NCBI GenBank assembly: GCA_007694945.1
Contig: REER01000080.1
Span: forward strand, 1-55,565
Length of the DNA: 55,565 nucleotides
From: Paracoccaceae bacterium
Lineage (GTDB): Bacteria; Pseudomonadota; Alphaproteobacteria; Rhodobacterales; Rhodobacteraceae
Direction of reading: 5' to 3'
Program-made: the position numbers and the translations under genes
Part shown: in pieces, positions 17,432 to 52,632 of the stretch
How the letters are laid out: each line of letters opens with the position of its first letter
Numbering within the stretch: position 1 is the first letter of the stretch
Notes under the pieces: generated by a model
What the model was told of the DNA's origin: nothing
What the model saw: the letters and a program-made list of their open reading frames with translations, nothing else
Database searches by the model: none

Positions 17432-18094
17432 CTAGACCTGCAGATGCCGCAAGCCCTGCGTCACATCGGTGCGCACCGCCAGTCGCAGCGCCGCGTCATC
17501 ACCCGCACGCAGTGCCTCCAAGATCAGCCGATGATGCGGCGGCGCCGTCGTGCGCCTGAGCCGCGTGTAAAGCGCGCGCATGGTTGGCCCTAGCTGGAGC
17601 CAGACCGTCTCGAGCAGGCCCAGCATGGCCGGGCTTTGCGCACGCAGATAAAGCGAGCGGTGAAATTCGAGATTGGTGCGGATATAGGCCACCGGATCCT
17701 GAGTGTGGATGGCCCGTGCATTGGCCTCGTTGATGCTCTCCATCCGGTCGATCAGCGCCAGATGCGCGCGCCGCAGCGCCCGGCTGGCCAGTTCCGGCTC
17801 CAGCAGCGCCCGGATCGAGGCCAGTTCCTCGATCCGCTCGTTGCTGAGTTCGGGCGTCGTGATCCGTCCCGAGGCCGAAAGCGTGAGCGCCCCCTCTGCG
17901 GTCAGCCGCCGCACGGCCTCGCGCGCTGGGGTCATGCTGACACCGAAGCTCGTGCCTATCCCGCGCAGGGTCAGCGCCGTGCCGGGCGCAAGCTCGCCGA
18001 GCATGACCTGCTGGCGAAGCCCGCGATAGACCCGGTCATGCGCCGATTGTACGGGTGCATCAGACAAGGCGGGACGGGCAAGCATTGATTGCAT
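17432..18094 (-). CDS. GntR-family regulator, FCD subfamily (LldR/GlcC-like)
   Basis: The 220-residue protein has an N-terminal winged helix (VYRGLRQQVMLGELAPG, then SFGVSMTPAREAVRRLTAEG, typical GntR recognition helix) and a C-terminal all-helical FCD domain with metal-ligand-like residues in LEFHRSLY and PHHRLILEALRAGD. FCD regulators of this size commonly sense 2- or 3-carbon organic acids, for example lactate (LldR), glycolate (GlcC) or pyruvate (PdhR). It is divergent from the coxG-like gene and lldD, which makes lactate control plausible. It is also the only FCD regulator in the window, so it is a candidate for the operator shared by lldD and glcD. In-frame ATGs at 18094 and 18085 are both possible. 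Confidence 0.88.
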   Translation of the reverse strand: MQSMLARPALSDAPVQSAHDRVYRGLRQQVMLGELAPGTALTLRGIGTSFGVSMTPAREAVRRLTAEGALTLSASGRITTPELSNERIEELASIRALLEPELASRALRRAHLALIDRMESINEANARAIHTQDPVAYIRTNLEFHRSLYLRAQSPAMLGLLETVWLQLGPTMRALYTRLRRTTAPPHHRLILEALRAGDDAALRLAVRTDVTQGLRHLQV

Positions 18095-18101
18095 TCCGAA
18101 A

Positions 18102-18111
18102 TGTGATCACA
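18102..18111. promoter_or_regulatory. Palindrome TGTGATCACA upstream of the GntR gene
   Basis: A perfect 10-bp palindrome lies 8 bases before the GntR start in the divergent intergenic region. It could be an autoregulatory operator. It does not match the lldD/glcD operator, so a different protein or a second site type is possible. Confidence 0.4.
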
Positions 18112-18237
18112 AACCGAGCGCCCGGTCAATCGCTGATCCCGCTTATGCCTTGGCATGCGACCAAAGCCTAGTTTCGCGAGATCGTGTTTTTCCTTATGCT
18201 GTCCCAAATCTTTTGCCGAGCGAAGAGGAGCCGCCCC

Positions 18238-18810
18238 ATGCAGATGACCGACGACCGCACCATCGCCGCCCCGCCTGAGACTGTCTGGAAGGCGCTGTTC
18301 GATCCCGAGGTGCTGAGAGCCTGCGTGCCCGGTTGCCAGTCGCTCACTGGCTCGACCGAAGAGGGCTATGAGGCCGTAGTCACCCAGAAGGTCGGCCCAG
18401 TCAAGGCGACCTTCAAGGGCGAAGTCACTATGGCCGATGTCGTCGAGGGCGAAAGCTGCACCCTGGTCGGTGAAGGCAAGGGCGGGGCCGCTGGCTTTGC
18501 CAAGGGCCAGGCGCGGGTCAAGCTCAGCCCGACCGATGACGGGCAGACGCTCCTGCATTACGAAGTCGATGCCAAGGTCGGCGGCAAGCTCGCGCAACTG
18601 GGTAGCCGGATTGTGGACGGATTCGCGCGACGCATGGCGGGTGAGTTCTTCACACGGTTTCAGGAACAGGTCGAGGGCCCGGCCCCCGAGGCTTCTGAAA
18701 CACCCGAACCGGCAGAGGCCCCGGCAGCGCAGCCAGAGGCCGCGAGCGCATCAGAGCCAGCCGCAGAAGCGCCCGCCAAGAAAAGCTGGTTGAAGCGCCT
18801 GATCTCCTGA
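18238..18810 (+). CDS. CoxG-like SRPBCC family protein
   Basis: The 190-residue product matches CoxG (carbon monoxide dehydrogenase subunit G) family proteins: MQMTDDRTIAAPPETVWKAL opens the START-like fold, followed by CVPGCQSL, GPVKATFKGEV, GEGKGGAAGFAKGQARVKL and the amphipathic helix KLAQLGSRIVDGFARRMAGEF. A flexible Ala/Glu/Pro-rich linker (about residues 145-180) precedes a basic tail, KKSWLKRL, that may contact membrane. CoxG recruits molybdenum hydroxylases to membranes or delivers quinone-like lipids, but no CO dehydrogenase genes are here. It precedes lldD by 69 bases, on the same strand; lldD also has its own promoter. Confidence 0.85.
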   Translation: MQMTDDRTIAAPPETVWKALFDPEVLRACVPGCQSLTGSTEEGYEAVVTQKVGPVKATFKGEVTMADVVEGESCTLVGEGKGGAAGFAKGQARVKLSPTDDGQTLLHYEVDAKVGGKLAQLGSRIVDGFARRMAGEFFTRFQEQVEGPAPEASETPEPAEAPAAQPEAASASEPAAEAPAKKSWLKRLIS

Positions 18811-18823
18811 GCGCGCGAAAGCC

Positions 18824-18864
18824 TTGCGCCAGCGCCCCCGTTTCGGTAACAAATTCTTACCAAT
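18824..18864 (+). promoter_or_regulatory. lldD promoter with operator shared with glcD
   Basis: TTGCGC (18824-18829) and TAACAA (18847-18852) have 17-base spacing. Overlapping the -10 is TTCGGTAA-N7-TTACCAAT (18842-18864): the right half is identical to the glcD operator and the left half matches 6 of 8, with the same 7-base spacer. The site ends 15 bases before the lldD ATG, a repressor position. Confidence 0.6.
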
Positions 18865-18879
18865 TCACAGGGGGAGCAC

Positions 18880-20052
18880 ATGCCGGCGATCACGAATATT
18901 GAGGACCTGCGCCGCGTCTACGAGCGTCGCACTCCGCGCATGTTCTATGACTATGCCGAATCCGGCAGCTGGAGCGAGCAGACCTTTCGCGAGAATGTCT
19001 CGGATTTCAGCCATATCCGCCTGAAACAGCGCGTTGCGGTGGATATGACCGGGCGCAGCACGAAAGCGCAGATGATCGGCGAAGATGTCGCGATGCCGGT
19101 CGGCCTTGCCCCGGTCGGCCTGACTGGCATGCAATCCGCCGATGGCGAGATCAAGGCCGCCCGCGCCGCCGAGAAATTCGGTGTGCCCTTCACCCTCTCG
19201 ACGCTCTCGATCTGTTCGATAGAGGATGTTGCGCAGCACACGAAAAAACCCTTCTGGTTTCAGGTCTACACGCTCAAGGATGACGATTTCATGCGCCGCC
19301 TGTTCGAACGTGCGAAGGCCGCGAACTGCTCGGCCATCGTGGTGACGGTGGATCTGCAGGTACTGGGCCAGCGCCACAAGGACATCAAGAACGGCCTCTC
19401 TGCGCCGCCCAAGCTGACCGTGAAATCCATCCTCAACCTGATGACCAAGATCCCTTGGGGTCTTGAGATGATGGGAACCCACCGCCGCACCTTCCGCAAT
19501 GTCGTGGGCCATGCCAAGGGTGTCACCGACCCCGGCTCACTCTCAGCCTGGACGGCCGAGGCCTTCGATCCGGCGCTCGACTGGAAGCGGATCGCGCAGT
19601 TCAAGGAATGGTGGGGCGGCAAGATGATCGTCAAGGGCATCATGGAGCCCGAAGACGCCCGCCGCGCTGCCGAGATCGGGGCTGATGCCATTGTCGTCTC
19701 CAACCATGGCGGGCGGCAATTGGATGGCGCAGTCTCCTCAATCCGCATGCTGCCCTCGATTGTCGATGCCGTGGGCGACAAGGTCGAAATCCACCTCGAT
19801 TCAGGCATCCGCTCGGGTCAGGACGTGCTCAAGGCTTTGGCGCTCGGTGCCAAGGGCACCTATATCGGCCGCGCCTTCACCTATGGGCTGGGCGCGATGG
19901 GCGAGCAGGGGGTGACAAAGGCGCTCGAGATCATCCACAAGGAACTCGACACCACCATGGCGCTCTGCGGCGAGACTGATGTCGCCCGCCTCGGGCCGCA
20001 CAATCTCTATGTGCCCCAAGGATTCGGCGACCCGACCGTGCTCTTGCCATGA
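18880..20052 (+). CDS. lldD: FMN-dependent L-lactate dehydrogenase (alpha-hydroxy-acid oxidoreductase)
   Basis: The 390-residue protein belongs to the FMN-dependent alpha-hydroxy acid dehydrogenase family, which oxidises L-lactate to pyruvate and feeds electrons to quinone at the inner membrane. Landmarks are the N-terminal RRTPRMFYDYAESGSW, PVGLAPVGLTGM for FMN binding, the WFQVYTLKD strand, KGIMEPEDA with the FMN Lys, the catalytic SNHGGRQLDG (His276 with substrate Arg), and DSGIRSGQDVLKALALGA for phosphate binding. GGGGGAG precedes the ATG. It is flanked by a GntR-FCD regulator and by its own operator-bearing promoter. Mandelate- or glycolate-type activity cannot be excluded from sequence. 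Confidence 0.92.
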   Translation: MPAITNIEDLRRVYERRTPRMFYDYAESGSWSEQTFRENVSDFSHIRLKQRVAVDMTGRSTKAQMIGEDVAMPVGLAPVGLTGMQSADGEIKAARAAEKFGVPFTLSTLSICSIEDVAQHTKKPFWFQVYTLKDDDFMRRLFERAKAANCSAIVVTVDLQVLGQRHKDIKNGLSAPPKLTVKSILNLMTKIPWGLEMMGTHRRTFRNVVGHAKGVTDPGSLSAWTAEAFDPALDWKRIAQFKEWWGGKMIVKGIMEPEDARRAAEIGADAIVVSNHGGRQLDGAVSSIRMLPSIVDAVGDKVEIHLDSGIRSGQDVLKALALGAKGTYIGRAFTYGLGAMGEQGVTKALEIIHKELDTTMALCGETDVARLGPHNLYVPQGFGDPTVLLP

Positions 20053-46934: not shown

Positions 46935-47408
46935 TCAGGCTGCTTCAGGCGCTTTTTCGGCCTCGACGAGCCGACCAGAACCGGCATCGGTCTGAATGGC
47001 AATCCTGCGCGGCTTGAGCGCCTCGGGCAATTCGCGAGCCAATTCGACGTGCAGCATGCCATCAATATGCCGGGCACCTGTCACGCGCACATGGTCCGCC
47101 AGATGGAACCGGCGCTCGAACGCTCGGGTGGCAATACCGCGATGCAGGAATTGGCGGTCCGTCTCATCTTCCGAGCTACGCCCGGCGATGATCAGCGCAT
47201 TTTCCTTGACCTCGACACCCAGGTCCTCAGGGGCAAAACCCGCGACGGCTATCGATATCCGATAGGCGTTTTCATCAATTTTCTCGATATTATAGGGCGG
47301 GTAGCTCGGCGCCTGCAGGTCGGTCGCAAGCACACGGTCAAGCATGTCGGCCATGCGGTCGAAACCGATCGTGGCACGATAGAGCGGGGTTGGATCAAAA
47401 CGACGCAT
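46935..47408 (-). CDS. Small heat-shock protein Hsp20
   Basis: The 157-residue protein is an alpha-crystallin-type chaperone that holds unfolded proteins for refolding. The N-terminus RRFDPTPLYRATIGFDRMADMLDR and the crystallin domain (PPYNIEKIDENAYRISIAVAGF to GMLHVELARELPE) match IbpA-like class A proteins; the C-terminal IxI motif is in RRIAIQT. GGAGG abuts the first ATG (47414) but sits 6 bases before the second (47408), so 47408 is the start. An RpoH-like promoter lies upstream. Confidence 0.93.
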   Translation of the reverse strand: MRRFDPTPLYRATIGFDRMADMLDRVLATDLQAPSYPPYNIEKIDENAYRISIAVAGFAPEDLGVEVKENALIIAGRSSEDETDRQFLHRGIATRAFERRFHLADHVRVTGARHIDGMLHVELARELPEALKPRRIAIQTDAGSGRLVEAEKAPEAA

Positions 47409-47511
47409 CAGCATCCTCCATTTGAAGCGATACAGGTTTGGCGCCTTCCATTACGGACAGGCGCGGTTTCGATGGTGCCGGGTCCACTATTCGGCCCCCG
47501 ACCCGAGGCAG

Positions 47512-47604: not shown

Positions 47605-48435
47605 TTATGGCCGAAGAAAGCGCGCGCCACCACCCGCGCTCATCTCGCGCGGGGTGTTGTCCTGCGCAGAGGGCGCCTGGATGAAGCGCCGGTCGGAGGC
47701 ATCGAGCGCCGCGCGTAGCACGTCCAGCCGCGGCCCCAGCGACACACCGAAAGAAATATCCTGCAACGCACCATCAACCTGACCGCGCCCCATGGCCGAA
47801 ACCACCGAGACGATATGCGCCCGCCCGCCCGAGATCGCAAAGACGGGTGCCCCGCTCGACCCGAAATCGACCGAGCAGGACATCACCAGCACCCCGTTGC
47901 GCTGACGCTCGAGCACCCGGCAGCGTTCCTGCAGCGAGGGCGCCTCGGCCCGGCCGCGCCCATAGGACACAACGCCCACCTGATCGCCGCTGCGCGGCTC
48001 GGTATAGACGGCAAAGGGCGTCACACCGCGATTGCGGATCGGATGCGTCAGCTCCAGAAGCGCCAGATCATGCGAGACATTGCTCGACTCGACCCCGCCA
48101 GCAGGGTCATAGCGCGGATGGACGACCGAACGCAGCACGCGCCCCTCGGCAGCAGCGCGCCCGTTGCGCCAGCCCGCGCGGAAAACGATCTCCGCATCCT
48201 CGTACCGTGCGCCAGTGTCGCTGTCGAAGAGGCAATGCGCCGCTGTCAGCACCAGCCTCTCCGAGATCAGCGCGCCAGTGCAAAAGCCCCTGCGGCCGAT
48301 ATCGATTCGCCCGACGCCTTCCCATCCCTGCACCTGCAAGCCAGTCTCGAGCGATTGCAGGGGCCGGTCCGAACTCTGGCCCAGCGCTGCTGAAGCAAGT
48401 GCGACGAGGAAGGCAAAGGCAAGCGGCAGGCGCAT
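47605..48435 (-). CDS. Secreted trypsin-like serine protease (S1)
   Basis: The 276-residue protein has a signal peptide (residues 1-20, ending ALGQ) and a chymotrypsin fold with the full triad: His in LTAAHCLFD, Asp in SHDLALLELTH, Ser in DFGSSGAPVF. The oxyanion sequence is GSSGAP in place of GDSGGP, the change seen in V8-like and other glutamyl-type S1 enzymes, so specificity is unclear. The C-terminal 40 residues are a low-complexity tail. It is periplasmic or extracellular. The I78-type inhibitor lipoprotein at 3432 could be relevant but is far away. Confidence 0.88.
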   Translation of the reverse strand: MRLPLAFAFLVALASAALGQSSDRPLQSLETGLQVQGWEGVGRIDIGRRGFCTGALISERLVLTAAHCLFDSDTGARYEDAEIVFRAGWRNGRAAAEGRVLRSVVHPRYDPAGGVESSNVSHDLALLELTHPIRNRGVTPFAVYTEPRSGDQVGVVSYGRGRAEAPSLQERCRVLERQRNGVLVMSCSVDFGSSGAPVFAISGGRAHIVSVVSAMGRGQVDGALQDISFGVSLGPRLDVLRAALDASDRRFIQAPSAQDNTPREMSAGGGARFLRP

Positions 48436-48559: not shown

Positions 48560-49876
48560 TCACGCCCGCTCGGTCAGCGCGGGCAGTTCCGCCTCGGCCA
48601 GCGCAGGCGGCAGCGGCCCGCCCGTTGCCCAGTCCAGCAACTCGACCGTGTGCACGATCGGCACCTGCGTCCCGCTGCCGATCTGCATCATGCAGCCGAT
48701 ATTGCCTGCCGCGATGATGTCGGGCGATTTCGCCTCGAGCGTCGCCACCTTGCGCGCTTTCAACTCACCGGAAATCTTGGGCTGCATCAGGTTATAGGTG
48801 CCTGCCGAGCCACAGCAGAGATGGCTGTCCTTGGGTTCCACCACTTCGAAACCCGCGCGCTTGAGCAGATCCTTTGGGTAGGTCTTGATCTGCTGGCCAT
48901 GCTGGAGCGAGCAAGCGGCGTGATAAGCTACCCGCAACCCCTTGGACGCACCTTGCGGCAAGTCGAGCTTCATCAGCACTTCGCTGACATCCATCGCGAT
49001 TCCGGCCACGGCCTTGGCTTCTTCGGCCAACACCTCATTGCGGAACATATGCCCGTAATCCTTGACGGTCGTGCCGCATCCGCTGGTATTGATCACCACT
49101 GCATCCAGCCCCTCGCCCTGCATCTCGCGCCACCAGGCCCGGATATTCTTCGCGGCTGTCGCATGGCTCTCGGCGGTCTTGCCCATATGATGCGTCAGCG
49201 CCCCGCAACAGCCCTGCCCTTCGGCAATCACCACCTCGCATCCCAGACGGCGCAAGAGCCGAATGGTCGCGTCATTGATATCGGTATTCAGCGCCCGCTG
49301 CGCGCAGCCCGTCATCAGCGCCAACCGCATCTTGCGCTCGCCAATCGCCGGAAAGACCTGCGGGTCATCATTGCGGCTGACGGGCGGGATCTGCTTCGGC
49401 GCCATCTCCAGCATCGCGCGCAGCCGCGCATCGGGCATCAGCCCCTTCAAAGGCCGCCCGATCTTCGCGCCCAGAAGTGCAAGCCGGAAGCGCGTCGGGT
49501 AAGGCAGGATCTGCGCCAGCGTCCAGCGCAGCACGCGCTCGAACAGGGGCCGCTTGTAAGTCTGTTCGATGTACTCGCGCGCATGATCCACAAGGTGCAT
49601 GTAATGCACGCCAGAAGGGCACGTCGTCATGCAGGCGAGGCAGGAGAGGCAGCGATCGATATGCTTGACCGTCTTCTCATCCGCCGGCCGCCCCTTCTCG
49701 AGCATGTCCTTGATCAGGTAGATACGCCCGCGCGGGCTGTCCAGCTCATCGCCCAGAATGGCATAGGTCGGGCAGGTTGCCGTGCAGAACCCGCAATGCA
49801 CGCAGGTCCGCAGCACCTCGTTCGAGCGCTGGATGGCCGGTTCTTTCAACTGCTCTACGGTGAAATTCGTCTGCAT
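48560..49876 (-). CDS. glcF: Glycolate oxidase iron-sulfur subunit GlcF
   Basis: GlcF is the ferredoxin-like subunit of membrane-bound glycolate oxidase, passing electrons from GlcDE to quinone. The 438-residue protein has two 4Fe-4S motifs near the N-terminus, CVHCGFCTATCPTY and CLSCLACMTTCPSG, and two CCG domains (GCCGALTHHMG and CCGSAGTYN). The start at 49876 is standard. It follows glcE after 6 bases and ends the glcDEF cluster. Confidence 0.95.
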   Translation of the reverse strand: MQTNFTVEQLKEPAIQRSNEVLRTCVHCGFCTATCPTYAILGDELDSPRGRIYLIKDMLEKGRPADEKTVKHIDRCLSCLACMTTCPSGVHYMHLVDHAREYIEQTYKRPLFERVLRWTLAQILPYPTRFRLALLGAKIGRPLKGLMPDARLRAMLEMAPKQIPPVSRNDDPQVFPAIGERKMRLALMTGCAQRALNTDINDATIRLLRRLGCEVVIAEGQGCCGALTHHMGKTAESHATAAKNIRAWWREMQGEGLDAVVINTSGCGTTVKDYGHMFRNEVLAEEAKAVAGIAMDVSEVLMKLDLPQGASKGLRVAYHAACSLQHGQQIKTYPKDLLKRAGFEVVEPKDSHLCCGSAGTYNLMQPKISGELKARKVATLEAKSPDIIAAGNIGCMMQIGSGTQVPIVHTVELLDWATGGPLPPALAEAELPALTERA

Positions 49877-49882
49877 CTTGCC

Positions 49883-50983
49883 TTACCCCATCAGTCCCGG
49901 ATTGAGCACTCCGCGCGGATCGAACCGCGCCCGCAGGCCCTGCGCCAGCGCCGCCACTGGCGCGGCCTCGGGCTGGAACACCGGCACGGCCGCCCGCGTC
50001 GCCTCCGAGCCGCGGATCAGCGTCGCATGGCCCTTGAACGCCCCAAGGCTCGCGCGGAGATCACGCCGCTCGGCCACCAACGCCCAGATCAGCCCGCCGC
50101 CCCAATCCATCACCACCGGGCAGTCCGCCCGCGCCACCAGATCCGGCGCCTCCGAGGGCCGTACCGAGAGCCGCCAGACATCGCCCGCGGCCCTGGCAAA
50201 ACCGCGCACATTGCGGATATCCCGCCACAATTCTGCGCTGGCGTCACTCTCCAGAACCTCCCAATCCCCGCCAAGCGCCGCGCGCAGCGCGGCGCCCCTG
50301 TAACTCACCTGTTCCGCAAACCCCTCGATCCTGAGCGCGACGCGCCCATCCGCCCCCCGCGCCGCGCCATTCACCTCATAGGGCGTGCCCAGCGCCTGCG
50401 ACATCAGCCGCACGGCCTCCGCAGGCGAGACCTCCGCGCTTACCAGCGTCACCTCCGCCGCGGGCACGGGCAAGAGCTTGAAGGAGCACTCGCTCAATAC
50501 CCCCAGCGTGCCCCATGAGCCTGCCATCAGCTTTACCAGATCATAGCCGGTGACATTCTTCATCACCCGCCCGCCATTCTTCACGATCGCCCCGCTGCCG
50601 TCGACAAAACGCAGCCCAATCAGCGAATCCCGACACGCCCCGGTCTGTACGCGCCGCGGCCCCGAGGCATTCGCGGCCACCATGCCCCCAACGGTTGGCT
50701 CACCGTCGCGCCCCAGTAGCGCGCGCATATCCATTGGTTCGAAGGGCAAGCGCTGCCCCTCTTTCGCCAGCGCCGCCTCTACCTCGGCCAGAGGCGTGCC
50801 CGCCTGCACCACCAGCGTCAGCGCGCCAGGCTCGTAGAGCGAGATGCCCGACAGCCCCGCTGTCTCCAGCACCTCGCCCGCCACAGGTCGCCCGATGGCC
50901 CGCGTCCCACCGCCACGCACCACCATGGGCCCCTTGGCAGTTCGCACCATCTCTGACAGCTCTTCCTCACTCGCAGGCCGCAT
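49883..50983 (-). CDS. glcE: Glycolate oxidase subunit GlcE
   Basis: GlcE is the FAD-binding partner subunit of glycolate oxidase. The 366-residue protein has an FAD_binding_4 domain: VVRGGGTRAIGRP, then PTVGGMVAANASGPRRVQTGACRDSLIGLRFV (50600-50700) and NGGRVMKNVTGYDLVKLMAGSWGTLGVLSE. The C-terminal part is shorter than in GlcD. It lies 158 bases downstream of glcD; this gap carries two copies of the 3'-end motif. It is 6 bases upstream of glcF. Confidence 0.94.
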   Translation of the reverse strand: MRPASEEELSEMVRTAKGPMVVRGGGTRAIGRPVAGEVLETAGLSGISLYEPGALTLVVQAGTPLAEVEAALAKEGQRLPFEPMDMRALLGRDGEPTVGGMVAANASGPRRVQTGACRDSLIGLRFVDGSGAIVKNGGRVMKNVTGYDLVKLMAGSWGTLGVLSECSFKLLPVPAAEVTLVSAEVSPAEAVRLMSQALGTPYEVNGAARGADGRVALRIEGFAEQVSYRGAALRAALGGDWEVLESDASAELWRDIRNVRGFARAAGDVWRLSVRPSEAPDLVARADCPVVMDWGGGLIWALVAERRDLRASLGAFKGHATLIRGSEATRAAVPVFQPEAAPVAALAQGLRARFDPRGVLNPGLMG

Positions 50984-51140: not shown

Positions 51141-52574
51141 TTACGCCGCCCGCCGCGCCGCACTCACCTCCAGCGGAAACACCTTGGCGGGGTTCAATAG
51201 CCACTGCGGATCGAACACATCCTTCACCCGCATCTGCGCCTCCAGATCCTCGGGCGCGAATTGCACCGCCATCAGATCGCGCTTCTCGATCCCCACGCCA
51301 TGCTCGCCGGTCAGACAGCCGCCGGCCTCGACACAGAGCTTCAGGATCTCGGCCCCGAAGGCCTCGCAACGCTCCAGATCGCCCGGCTTGTTTGCATCGA
51401 ACAGGATCAGCGGGTGCATGTTGCCATCCCCGGCATGAAAGACATTTGCCACATCCAGCCCGAACTCCTTCGACATCTCGCCAATGCGGCGCAGCACGAA
51501 AGGCAGCGAGGAGACCGGTATCGTACCATCAAGGCACATGTAGTCATTGATCTGGCCCATCGCGCCAAAGGCCGATTTGCGCCCCAGCCAGATCTTCTTG
51601 CTTTCGTCCTCCGACTGGCTCTCGCGCAATTCAACCGGGTTGTGCCGCCGCGCAATCTGCGTGATCAGGCCGAGTTGCTCGTCAATTTCGGCCTCCGAGC
51701 CTTCGACCTCGACAATCAGCAGCGCCTCGCAATCCGGATAGCCCGCCTTAGCGAAATCTTCGCAGGCGCGGATGCAAGGGCGGTCCATGAACTCGATCGC
51801 AACGGGCAGCACGCCTGCCTTGATAATATCCGACACGCAGGCACCCGCCACTTCGGAACTGTCGAACCCCATCAGCACGGGCCGCGCGCCCTCGGGCCTG
51901 GGCAGGATGCGCAGGGTGGCCTCTGTGACGACGCCAAGCTGACCCTCCGAGCCGCAAATGAGCCCGAGCAGGTCATAACCGGCCGCATCCAGATGCGCGC
52001 CACCAAGCTCAACCACCGTGCCATCCATCTGCACCATGGTGACGCCCAGCAAGTTATTGGTTGTCACCCCGTATTTCAGGCAATGCGCGCCGCCGGAATT
52101 CATCGCAATATTTCCGGCGATGGCACAGGCCAGCTGGCTCGACGGGTCCGGCGCATAGAAGAAACCGTCCGATTCCACCTCACCAGTGACCGCCAGATTG
52201 GTCATCCCTGTCTGCACGCGGATGATCCGGTCGGCATAATCGACCTCCAGCACGTCGCGCAGCCGCGCGACGCCGAGGATGATCGAATCCTCAGTGGGCA
52301 GCGCGCCGCCAGCAAGCGACGTGCCCGAACCGCGCGGCACCACCGGCACTTTCTCGTCATGACAGATCCGCAGGATGCGCGCCACCTCTTCGGTCGTCGA
52401 TGGCAACACCACGGCCATCGGCACACAGCGATAGGCGGTCAGCGCATCGCATTCATAGGCGCGGCGCTCGGCCTCATCGCTGATCAGCGCCTCGGCAGGC
52501 AGGATTTCGGCCAATTGCGTCAGCACGCGGTCACGCTTGGCCAAAATCGCCGGATTGGGGGCGGGCATCTCCAT
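51141..52574 (-). CDS. glcD: Glycolate oxidase catalytic subunit GlcD
   Basis: GlcD is the FAD-linked subunit that oxidises glycolate to glyoxylate. The 477-residue protein has the FAD_binding_4 core (VPVVPRGSGTSLAGGALPTEDSIILGVARL, 52240-52335, and NIAMNSGGAHCLKYGVTTNNLLGVTMV) and the FAD-oxidase C-terminal domain with NVFHAGDGNMHPLILFD and LTGEHGVGIEKRDLM, whose histidines are conserved. GGAGG lies 8 bases before the ATG at 52574. It begins the glcDEF cluster, controlled by the operator at 52595-52617. The regulator gene is not adjacent. Confidence 0.96.
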   Translation of the reverse strand: MEMPAPNPAILAKRDRVLTQLAEILPAEALISDEAERRAYECDALTAYRCVPMAVVLPSTTEEVARILRICHDEKVPVVPRGSGTSLAGGALPTEDSIILGVARLRDVLEVDYADRIIRVQTGMTNLAVTGEVESDGFFYAPDPSSQLACAIAGNIAMNSGGAHCLKYGVTTNNLLGVTMVQMDGTVVELGGAHLDAAGYDLLGLICGSEGQLGVVTEATLRILPRPEGARPVLMGFDSSEVAGACVSDIIKAGVLPVAIEFMDRPCIRACEDFAKAGYPDCEALLIVEVEGSEAEIDEQLGLITQIARRHNPVELRESQSEDESKKIWLGRKSAFGAMGQINDYMCLDGTIPVSSLPFVLRRIGEMSKEFGLDVANVFHAGDGNMHPLILFDANKPGDLERCEAFGAEILKLCVEAGGCLTGEHGVGIEKRDLMAVQFAPEDLEAQMRVKDVFDPQWLLNPAKVFPLEVSAARRAA

Positions 52575-52594: not shown

Positions 52595-52632
52595 ATTGGT
52601 AAAATAATATTACCAATTTTGGCATTTGGCAA
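52595..52632 (-). promoter_or_regulatory. glcD promoter with perfect operator over the -10
   Basis: On the minus strand TTGCCA (52632-52627) and TATTAT (52609-52604) have 17-base spacing. The perfect inverted repeat ATTGGTAA-N7-TTACCAAT (52595-52617) covers the -10 and ends 20 bases before the glcD ATG. A near-copy lies at the lldD promoter. Confidence 0.78.

Follow-up and report, generated by a model that had tools for sequence, protein, structure and literature searches.

In many Rhodobacteraceae, one repressor very probably controls glycolate and lactate oxidation, a transporter and its own gene by way of a widely spaced binding site. Comparison of sequences points to this reading, in which the inverted repeats at the glcD and lldD promoters of the window (the whole stretch analysed, 55,565 nt from a Paracoccaceae bacterium) would be operators of a single autoregulated GntR/FCD protein encoded elsewhere in the source genome (3.18 Mb in 145 contigs), on contig C22; we consider this assignment likely and hold it with considerable confidence. 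The original prediction had proposed one operator common to lldD and glcD, and a site of this kind, with the placement of a repressor site, is indeed kept across the genus and much of the family.

Both dyads sit at the positions and with the arms that had been predicted, among the following features of the two loci.

52595..52617, no strand: putative operator dyad ATTGGTAA-N7-TTACCAAT over the glcD -10, 0 mismatches
52604..52609, minus strand: putative glcD -10, TATTAT, read from sequence, its register to the dyad fixed in relatives
52627..52632, minus strand: putative glcD -35, TTGCCA, 17 bp from the -10, read from sequence
51141..52574, minus strand: glcD, FAD subunit of glycolate oxidase, with its start moved to 52574
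49883..50983, minus strand: glcE, NCBIfam GlcE at 280 bits, slightly under the cut-off of 284
48560..49876, minus strand: glcF, Fe-S subunit, Pfam CCG and Fer4, named by position and domains
18842..18864, no strand: putative operator dyad TTCGGTAA-N7-TTACCAAT over the lldD -10, 1 mismatch
18824..18829, plus strand: putative lldD -35, TTGCGC, 17 bp from the -10, read from sequence
18847..18852, plus strand: putative lldD -10, TAACAA, a weak hexamer, read from sequence
18880..20052, plus strand: lldD-type FMN L-lactate dehydrogenase, NCBIfam PRK11197 at 422 bits, above cut-off, and Pfam FMN_dh

The glcD product has NCBIfam GlcD as its best match (550 bits, against an equivalog cut-off of 897), together with the Pfam domains FAD_binding_4 and FAD-oxidase_C. 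Its start was placed by reading at 52574, as against 52625 in the list of open reading frames, on the basis of the ribosome-binding site and of relatives, and the dyad lies 20 bp upstream of this start codon. As had been noted, no regulator is seen among the genes flanking glcDEF, some of which were covered by domain searches; downstream of glcF lie a gene for a trypsin-like protease (47605-48435) and an HSP20 gene (46935-47414).

The dyads are confirmed, at a frequency far beyond that expected by chance. With up to three mismatches allowed, TTGGTAA-N7-TTACCAA matches the window four times, at glcD (0 mismatches), at lldD (1) and at two places with 3 mismatches, whereas the same scan on shuffled versions of the window gives a mean of 0.36 and a maximum of 3, with none of 100 shuffles reaching four. 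The source genome holds a third copy, with 1 mismatch and preceding the TRAP operon dctP-dctQ-dctM of contig C70, and two matches with 2 mismatches on C14 and C54.

The predicted position of the dyads over the -10 elements also stands, the promoters reading TTGCCA-N17-TATTAT at glcD and TTGCGC-N17-TAACAA at lldD. Among relatives, a TTG occurs at a fixed offset of -16 in 70% of 50 glcD promoters, so that the -10 falls inside the dyad, and the best -10 begins at dyad position +7 in 36 of the 50 glcD promoters and in 21 of 25 promoters of the regulator gene. In 88% of 25 lldD promoters the TTG stands at offset -19, shifted upstream by 3 bp, and the best -10 is more variable in place; the spacing of the dyad is therefore not simply a by-product of the -10.

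When relatives were scanned, the site was found with at most one mismatch in all 30 congeneric genomes, the source genome included. These genomes give 71 matches, as against 2 for a reversed-pattern control, and 70 of the 71 lie upstream of glcD (27), lldD (22) or the dctP/TRAP operon (21). The remaining match, L091, lies inside sufC. The sites stand 19-26 bp from glcD, 16-21 bp from lldD and 138-147 bp from dctP. The dctP sites lie mostly within a divergent dctP/glnE region, about equally far from glnE as from dctP (~140 bp), and could serve either gene.

The original prediction assigned the dyads to a regulator encoded in the window itself, close to lldD.

17432..18094, minus strand: GntR/FCD regulator proposed by the original prediction, Pfam GntR and FCD
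18102..18111, no strand: TGTGATCACA palindrome at the promoter of the 17432-18094 gene, read from sequence

Its product does carry the GntR and FCD domains that had been claimed (Pfam), and of the 22 genus lldD sites 21 have a gene of this type close to lldD, including 7 where the two genes are directly divergent. However, all 7 divergent genus lldD loci aligned show the TGTGATCACA palindrome just upstream of the start of this gene and apart from the dyad, and from this arrangement the palindrome is probably the regulator's own operator. Moreover, the presence of the regulator does not follow the dyad: of the 23 genomes that lack the C22-type regulator, all without a glcD dyad, 13 have an orthologue (at least 60% identity), whereas G033 has the dyad and no orthologue at an E-value of 1e-30. 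The helix region of the 17432-18094 type, SMTPAREAV, is likewise unlike the SRPSLR(D/E)A type described below. It is extremely unlikely that this protein binds the dyad, and its proposed role as the cognate regulator is not supported. In the window, a CoxG-domain gene (18184-18810) lies between the GntR/FCD gene and lldD; it was not found there at 7 genus lldD sites.

The preferred candidate for the repressor is instead encoded at an unlinked locus.

C22:57945-58709: candidate cognate regulator, GntR/FCD, 255 aa, unlinked to glcDEF and lldD

Among the 14 GntR-domain matches of the source genome, 12 of which are above cut-off, the C22 protein is the nearest to PdhR, LldR and GlcC. Its Pfam GntR (71 bits) and FCD (78 bits) domains both score above cut-off, while its NCBIfam scores all fall below (204 bits against 330 for PdhR, 174.5 against 311 for LldR and 156 against 301 for GlcC); it is a relative of these equivalogs and not a member. 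Among loci that bear a genus name, the nearest are those of Natronohydrobacter, Roseinatronobacter and Roseibaca, where the regulator is 82-84% identical; in Rhodobacteraceae metagenome-assembled genomes the identity rises to 91%. In four annotated genomes whose translations were read, the gene follows that of an OmpA-like lipoprotein and is followed by the ATP-synthase F0 genes, with one gene intervening between regulator and F0 genes in G032. Metal-site FCD proteins use an Asp and three His as ligands, and D150, H154, H202 and H224, invariant in 14 sequences, are candidates for such ligands.

The promoter of the C22 regulator itself bears CGGTCATATCTTTTGACCA, with the same GGT-N11-ACC spacing as the glcD and lldD dyads, and by reading this dyad overlies TATCTT, 17 bp from TTGCGC. 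The spacing recurs at the regulator's own promoter in 25 of the 27 genus loci that hold its start (22 located by a start pattern, and five more read, three with the dyad and two without), in 25 of 28 loci from other genera, with three lacking it, and in 74 of 80 loci from named genome records, some of them of the same genus, with six lacking it. In G021 (L085) and G012 (L086), the regulator and the glcD site are present and the regulator promoter is without the dyad; autoregulation may have been lost in these two genomes.

The distribution of the regulator matches that of the sites. Across 199 genomes of the family, with the regulator counted as present at an E-value of 1e-60 or better, regulator and site occur together in 134, the regulator only in 15, the site only in 7 and neither in 43 (Fisher test, p=1.7e-23, kinship ignored); in one of the seven site-only genomes, G135, the site lies at a PdhR-like gene beside a D-lactate dehydrogenase gene. 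The association was also assessed with glcD and lldD loci fetched by protein, not by pattern, from 100 genomes of the family, the dyad at glcD being taken as GGT-N11-ACC (with a T before or an A after) within 120 bp upstream of the gene. Glycolate oxidase occurs in 96 of the 100 genomes, 73 with the regulator and 23 without. The loci read came from 50 of the 73 regulator-bearing genomes (30 with the glcD closest to that of the window and 20 chosen as less similar) and from all 23 of the others, and the dyad was present at 50/50 loci with the regulator and 0/23 without, giving agreement in all 73 loci read. Four of the 20 less similar genomes (G033, G086, G098 and G128) have no whole-genome match at one mismatch or fewer. 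For lldD, the dyad was found at 25 of 27 loci with the regulator, these being 27 of 71 such genomes, and at none of 18 without; it is missing despite the regulator in G039 and G119. On a tree of glcD DNA, the regulator changes state 13 times and the dyad changes each time, and all 7 supported independent pairs agree (p=0.016); the glcD protein tree offers 3 supported independent pairs only (p=0.25).

Since the case for the C22 type consists of association and conservation, the site could in principle be bound by another unlinked factor whose gains and losses coincided with those of the PdhR-like gene, which it would also regulate. The regulator was found in 27 of the 30 genus genomes, and the three with sites but no regulator match (G005, G008 and G016, 75-93% complete) would fit such a factor. 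However, this account requires an additional protein, and relatives of the C22 regulator encoded beside glcDEF (GlcR) and beside dld have like dyads in their divergent intergenic regions, GlcR being reported to bind its own fragment (PMC11323563). We regard another factor as unlikely and the C22-type regulator as the better reading.

Beyond the genus, malate synthase G joins the putative regulon. Among the 75 family matches listed, 24 lie before glcD, 26 before lldD, 1 before the gene of an lldD-like FMN enzyme, 8 before malate synthase G, 5 before a DctP gene, 2 before the regulator and 1 before a PdhR-like gene, with 8 lacking an assignable gene (L172, L181, L207, L211, L218, L219, L235 and L244). 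For malate synthase G, a family search confirmed two of the eight, and the remaining ones match one of the two confirmed. In the source genome, the TRAP binding protein is nearest to SmoM and to a ketoacid-binding protein, with the Thermus lactate-binding protein more distant. A relaxed pattern gave 9 matches in the source genome against 5 for the reversed control, four of the nine being the regulator, dctP, lldD and glcD. This pattern is not specific, as the control equals or exceeds the matches in 3 of 8 genus genomes (matches to control 6:7 in G010, 5:9 in G021 and 12:13 in G018).

The spacing itself is unusual, as had been remarked, at 11 nt compared with the 3 nt of published PdhR/LldR operators. 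Strict TGGT-Nk-ACCA was sought with k from 0 to 20: of the first 30 glcD promoters, 28 have it with k=11 and none with any other k, and in the promoter sets fetched by protein only k=11 is prominent over the same range, any other k being found in at most 3 promoters per set. The canonical TGGT-N3-ACCA is absent from 30 glcD, 30 lldD and 80 named-record regulator promoters, and is present in one of 28 regulator promoters of other genera, where it overlaps an N11 dyad. Operators of the FadR subfamily are described as TKGT/ACMA, GT and AC standing 2-3 nt apart, with NanR and BioR among the exceptions (PMC4494728). The half-sites of the C22 type fit this rule, but their distance is 11 nt at glcD, at lldD and at the regulator gene, so that the N11 sites need another geometry.

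Formally, TTGGT-N11-ACCAA also fits the T-N11-A rule of LysR-family boxes, and a LysR-type regulator might accordingly be thought to bind the site. An annotated LysR gene does adjoin glcD in S. meliloti, and in Shinella an unannotated open reading frame at this place resembles one when read. Against this, the C22-type GntR/FCD gene bears the same dyad itself and its presence matches that of the glcD dyad, an activator would not be expected to have its site over the -10, and TGGT/ACCA is the half-site of PdhR and LldR (PMC10272880, PMC7660256). A LysR protein is therefore a very unlikely occupant, and the site is better attributed to the PdhR-like C22 type.

Similar dyads occur in other genera, some promoters of Rhizobiales included. 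In three records of Paracoccus and two of Sulfitobacter, GGT-N11-ACC is present in the divergent region adjoining glcD, and two regions that separate an LldR-like gene from dld also have it. TGGT-N11-ACCA precedes glcD in Shinella and S. meliloti, and in A. tumefaciens it precedes an alpha-hydroxy-acid oxidase gene. The S. meliloti (L469, 2419-2439) and Shinella (L464, 2560-2580) sites are those next to the LysR gene, and a PdhR-like gene lies ~2.5 kb away from these glcD promoters. No dyad was found at Haematobacter glcD (L190) and no TGGT-N11-ACCA in Azospirillum; none precedes the lactate genes of Skermanella, where by eye the best spacing is N10, and in Marivivens only a GGT-N11-ACC upstream of a TRAP gene was seen (by eye). 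In the proteins, the recognition-helix region reads SRPSLRDA in the C22 type and SRPSLREA in PdhR, and at the junction of winged helix and FCD domain PdhR aligns without insertion, while E. coli LldR has four extra residues. Even chances may be given to a broader proposal, that the whole alphaproteobacterial branch of the PdhR/LldR/GlcC group uses TGGT/ACCA half-sites set 8 bp wider than in Enterobacteria, with a near-identical recognition helix and no insertion relative to PdhR between winged helix and FCD domain, and that in Rhodobacteraceae one such protein merges the control of glycolate, L-lactate, hydroxy-acid uptake and malate synthase. If true, the largest GntR subfamily would use a second geometry of operator.

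Several known systems resemble the one proposed here. In Paracoccus denitrificans, GlcR (Pden_4400) represses glcDEF, is released by glycolate and binds the glc promoter fragment (PMC11323563). Like the C22 type, it is a GntR/FCD protein and kin of PdhR, LldR and GlcC, and its repression of glcDEF parallels that proposed for the C22 type; a P. denitrificans record likewise shows TGGT/ACCA half-sites at the N11 spacing between glcR and glcD. However, the two proteins are only ~41% identical and lie on opposite sides of a supported branch: in the regulator tree GlcR joins the LldR-like rows of Paracoccus and those of E. coli (100/98), and all 54 C22-type rows fall outside this group. The E. coli rows and those of the window's GntR protein are long-branched in this tree, which makes the E. 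coli placement unsure, and a wrong-frame row (G000_L008) was excluded. Furthermore, GlcR is linked to glcDEF, whereas the C22 type is unlinked and near the F0 genes, and C22-type sites are also found at lldD, the TRAP operon, malate synthase and the regulator's own gene; the part of the GlcR report covered gives no binding site. In E. coli, LldR and PdhR both bind the lld and the glc promoters (PMC10272880, PMC7660256), so that, as for the C22 type, one regulator acts on both operons through TGGT/ACCA half-sites. The E. coli operators (AAnTGGTCnGACCAnTT; AATTGGTnnnACCAATT) have 3 nt between the half-sites, compared with 11 nt at C22-type sites, and E. coli LldR is reported as an activator, whereas the C22 type is proposed as a repressor. 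A comparative study from 2016 describes alphaproteobacterial GlcC motifs that differ in spacer length from those of beta- and gammaproteobacteria, and the available part of its account of these regulons does not mention co-regulation of lldD or TRAP genes (PMC5343134, RegPrecise). Among the titles and abstract openings covered, no account of the C22-type regulator or of a merged regulon was recognised, and the C22-type clade, its merged regulon and the breadth of the N11 spacing are apparently new.

The sites, their positions, their conservation and the association with the regulator were read directly from the DNA, and are consistent with the following mechanism. A dimer of the C22-type regulator, or a pair of dimers, would contact two TTGGT half-sites 11 nt apart (TGGT-N11-ACCA), and as these straddle the -10 of glcD, of lldD and of the regulator gene, direct binding would block RNA polymerase. 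Uptake of a 2-hydroxy acid (glycolate and/or L-lactate) as ligand by the FCD domain would lift the block. The proposed regulon comprises glcDEF, lldD, the TRAP dctPQM operon, which may import hydroxy acids, and the regulator itself, with malate synthase G added in other genera.

Algae produce glycolate abundantly (PMC11323563), and in Ruegeria pomeroyi a mutant in glcE has lower fitness in mixed phycosphere culture (PMC10041152); with a regulator and an operator named, control of this flow of glycolate carbon becomes testable. For lactate, a transposon study of Cereibacter sphaeroides states that the gene for its L-lactate dehydrogenase is not determined (PMC12632250). The operator also matters for its departure from the half-site distance of 2-3 nt in the FadR subfamily, and the same helix and the same half-site at two spacings would make a clean system for asking how a winged-helix dimer measures distance along DNA. 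In the glcR-glcD region of P. denitrificans (L186, 6100-6290), a second dyad, GGT-N10-ACC, lies ~30 bp from the N11 dyad and is also present in P. versutus and P. kondratievae; GlcR may bind two sites at glcR-glcD.
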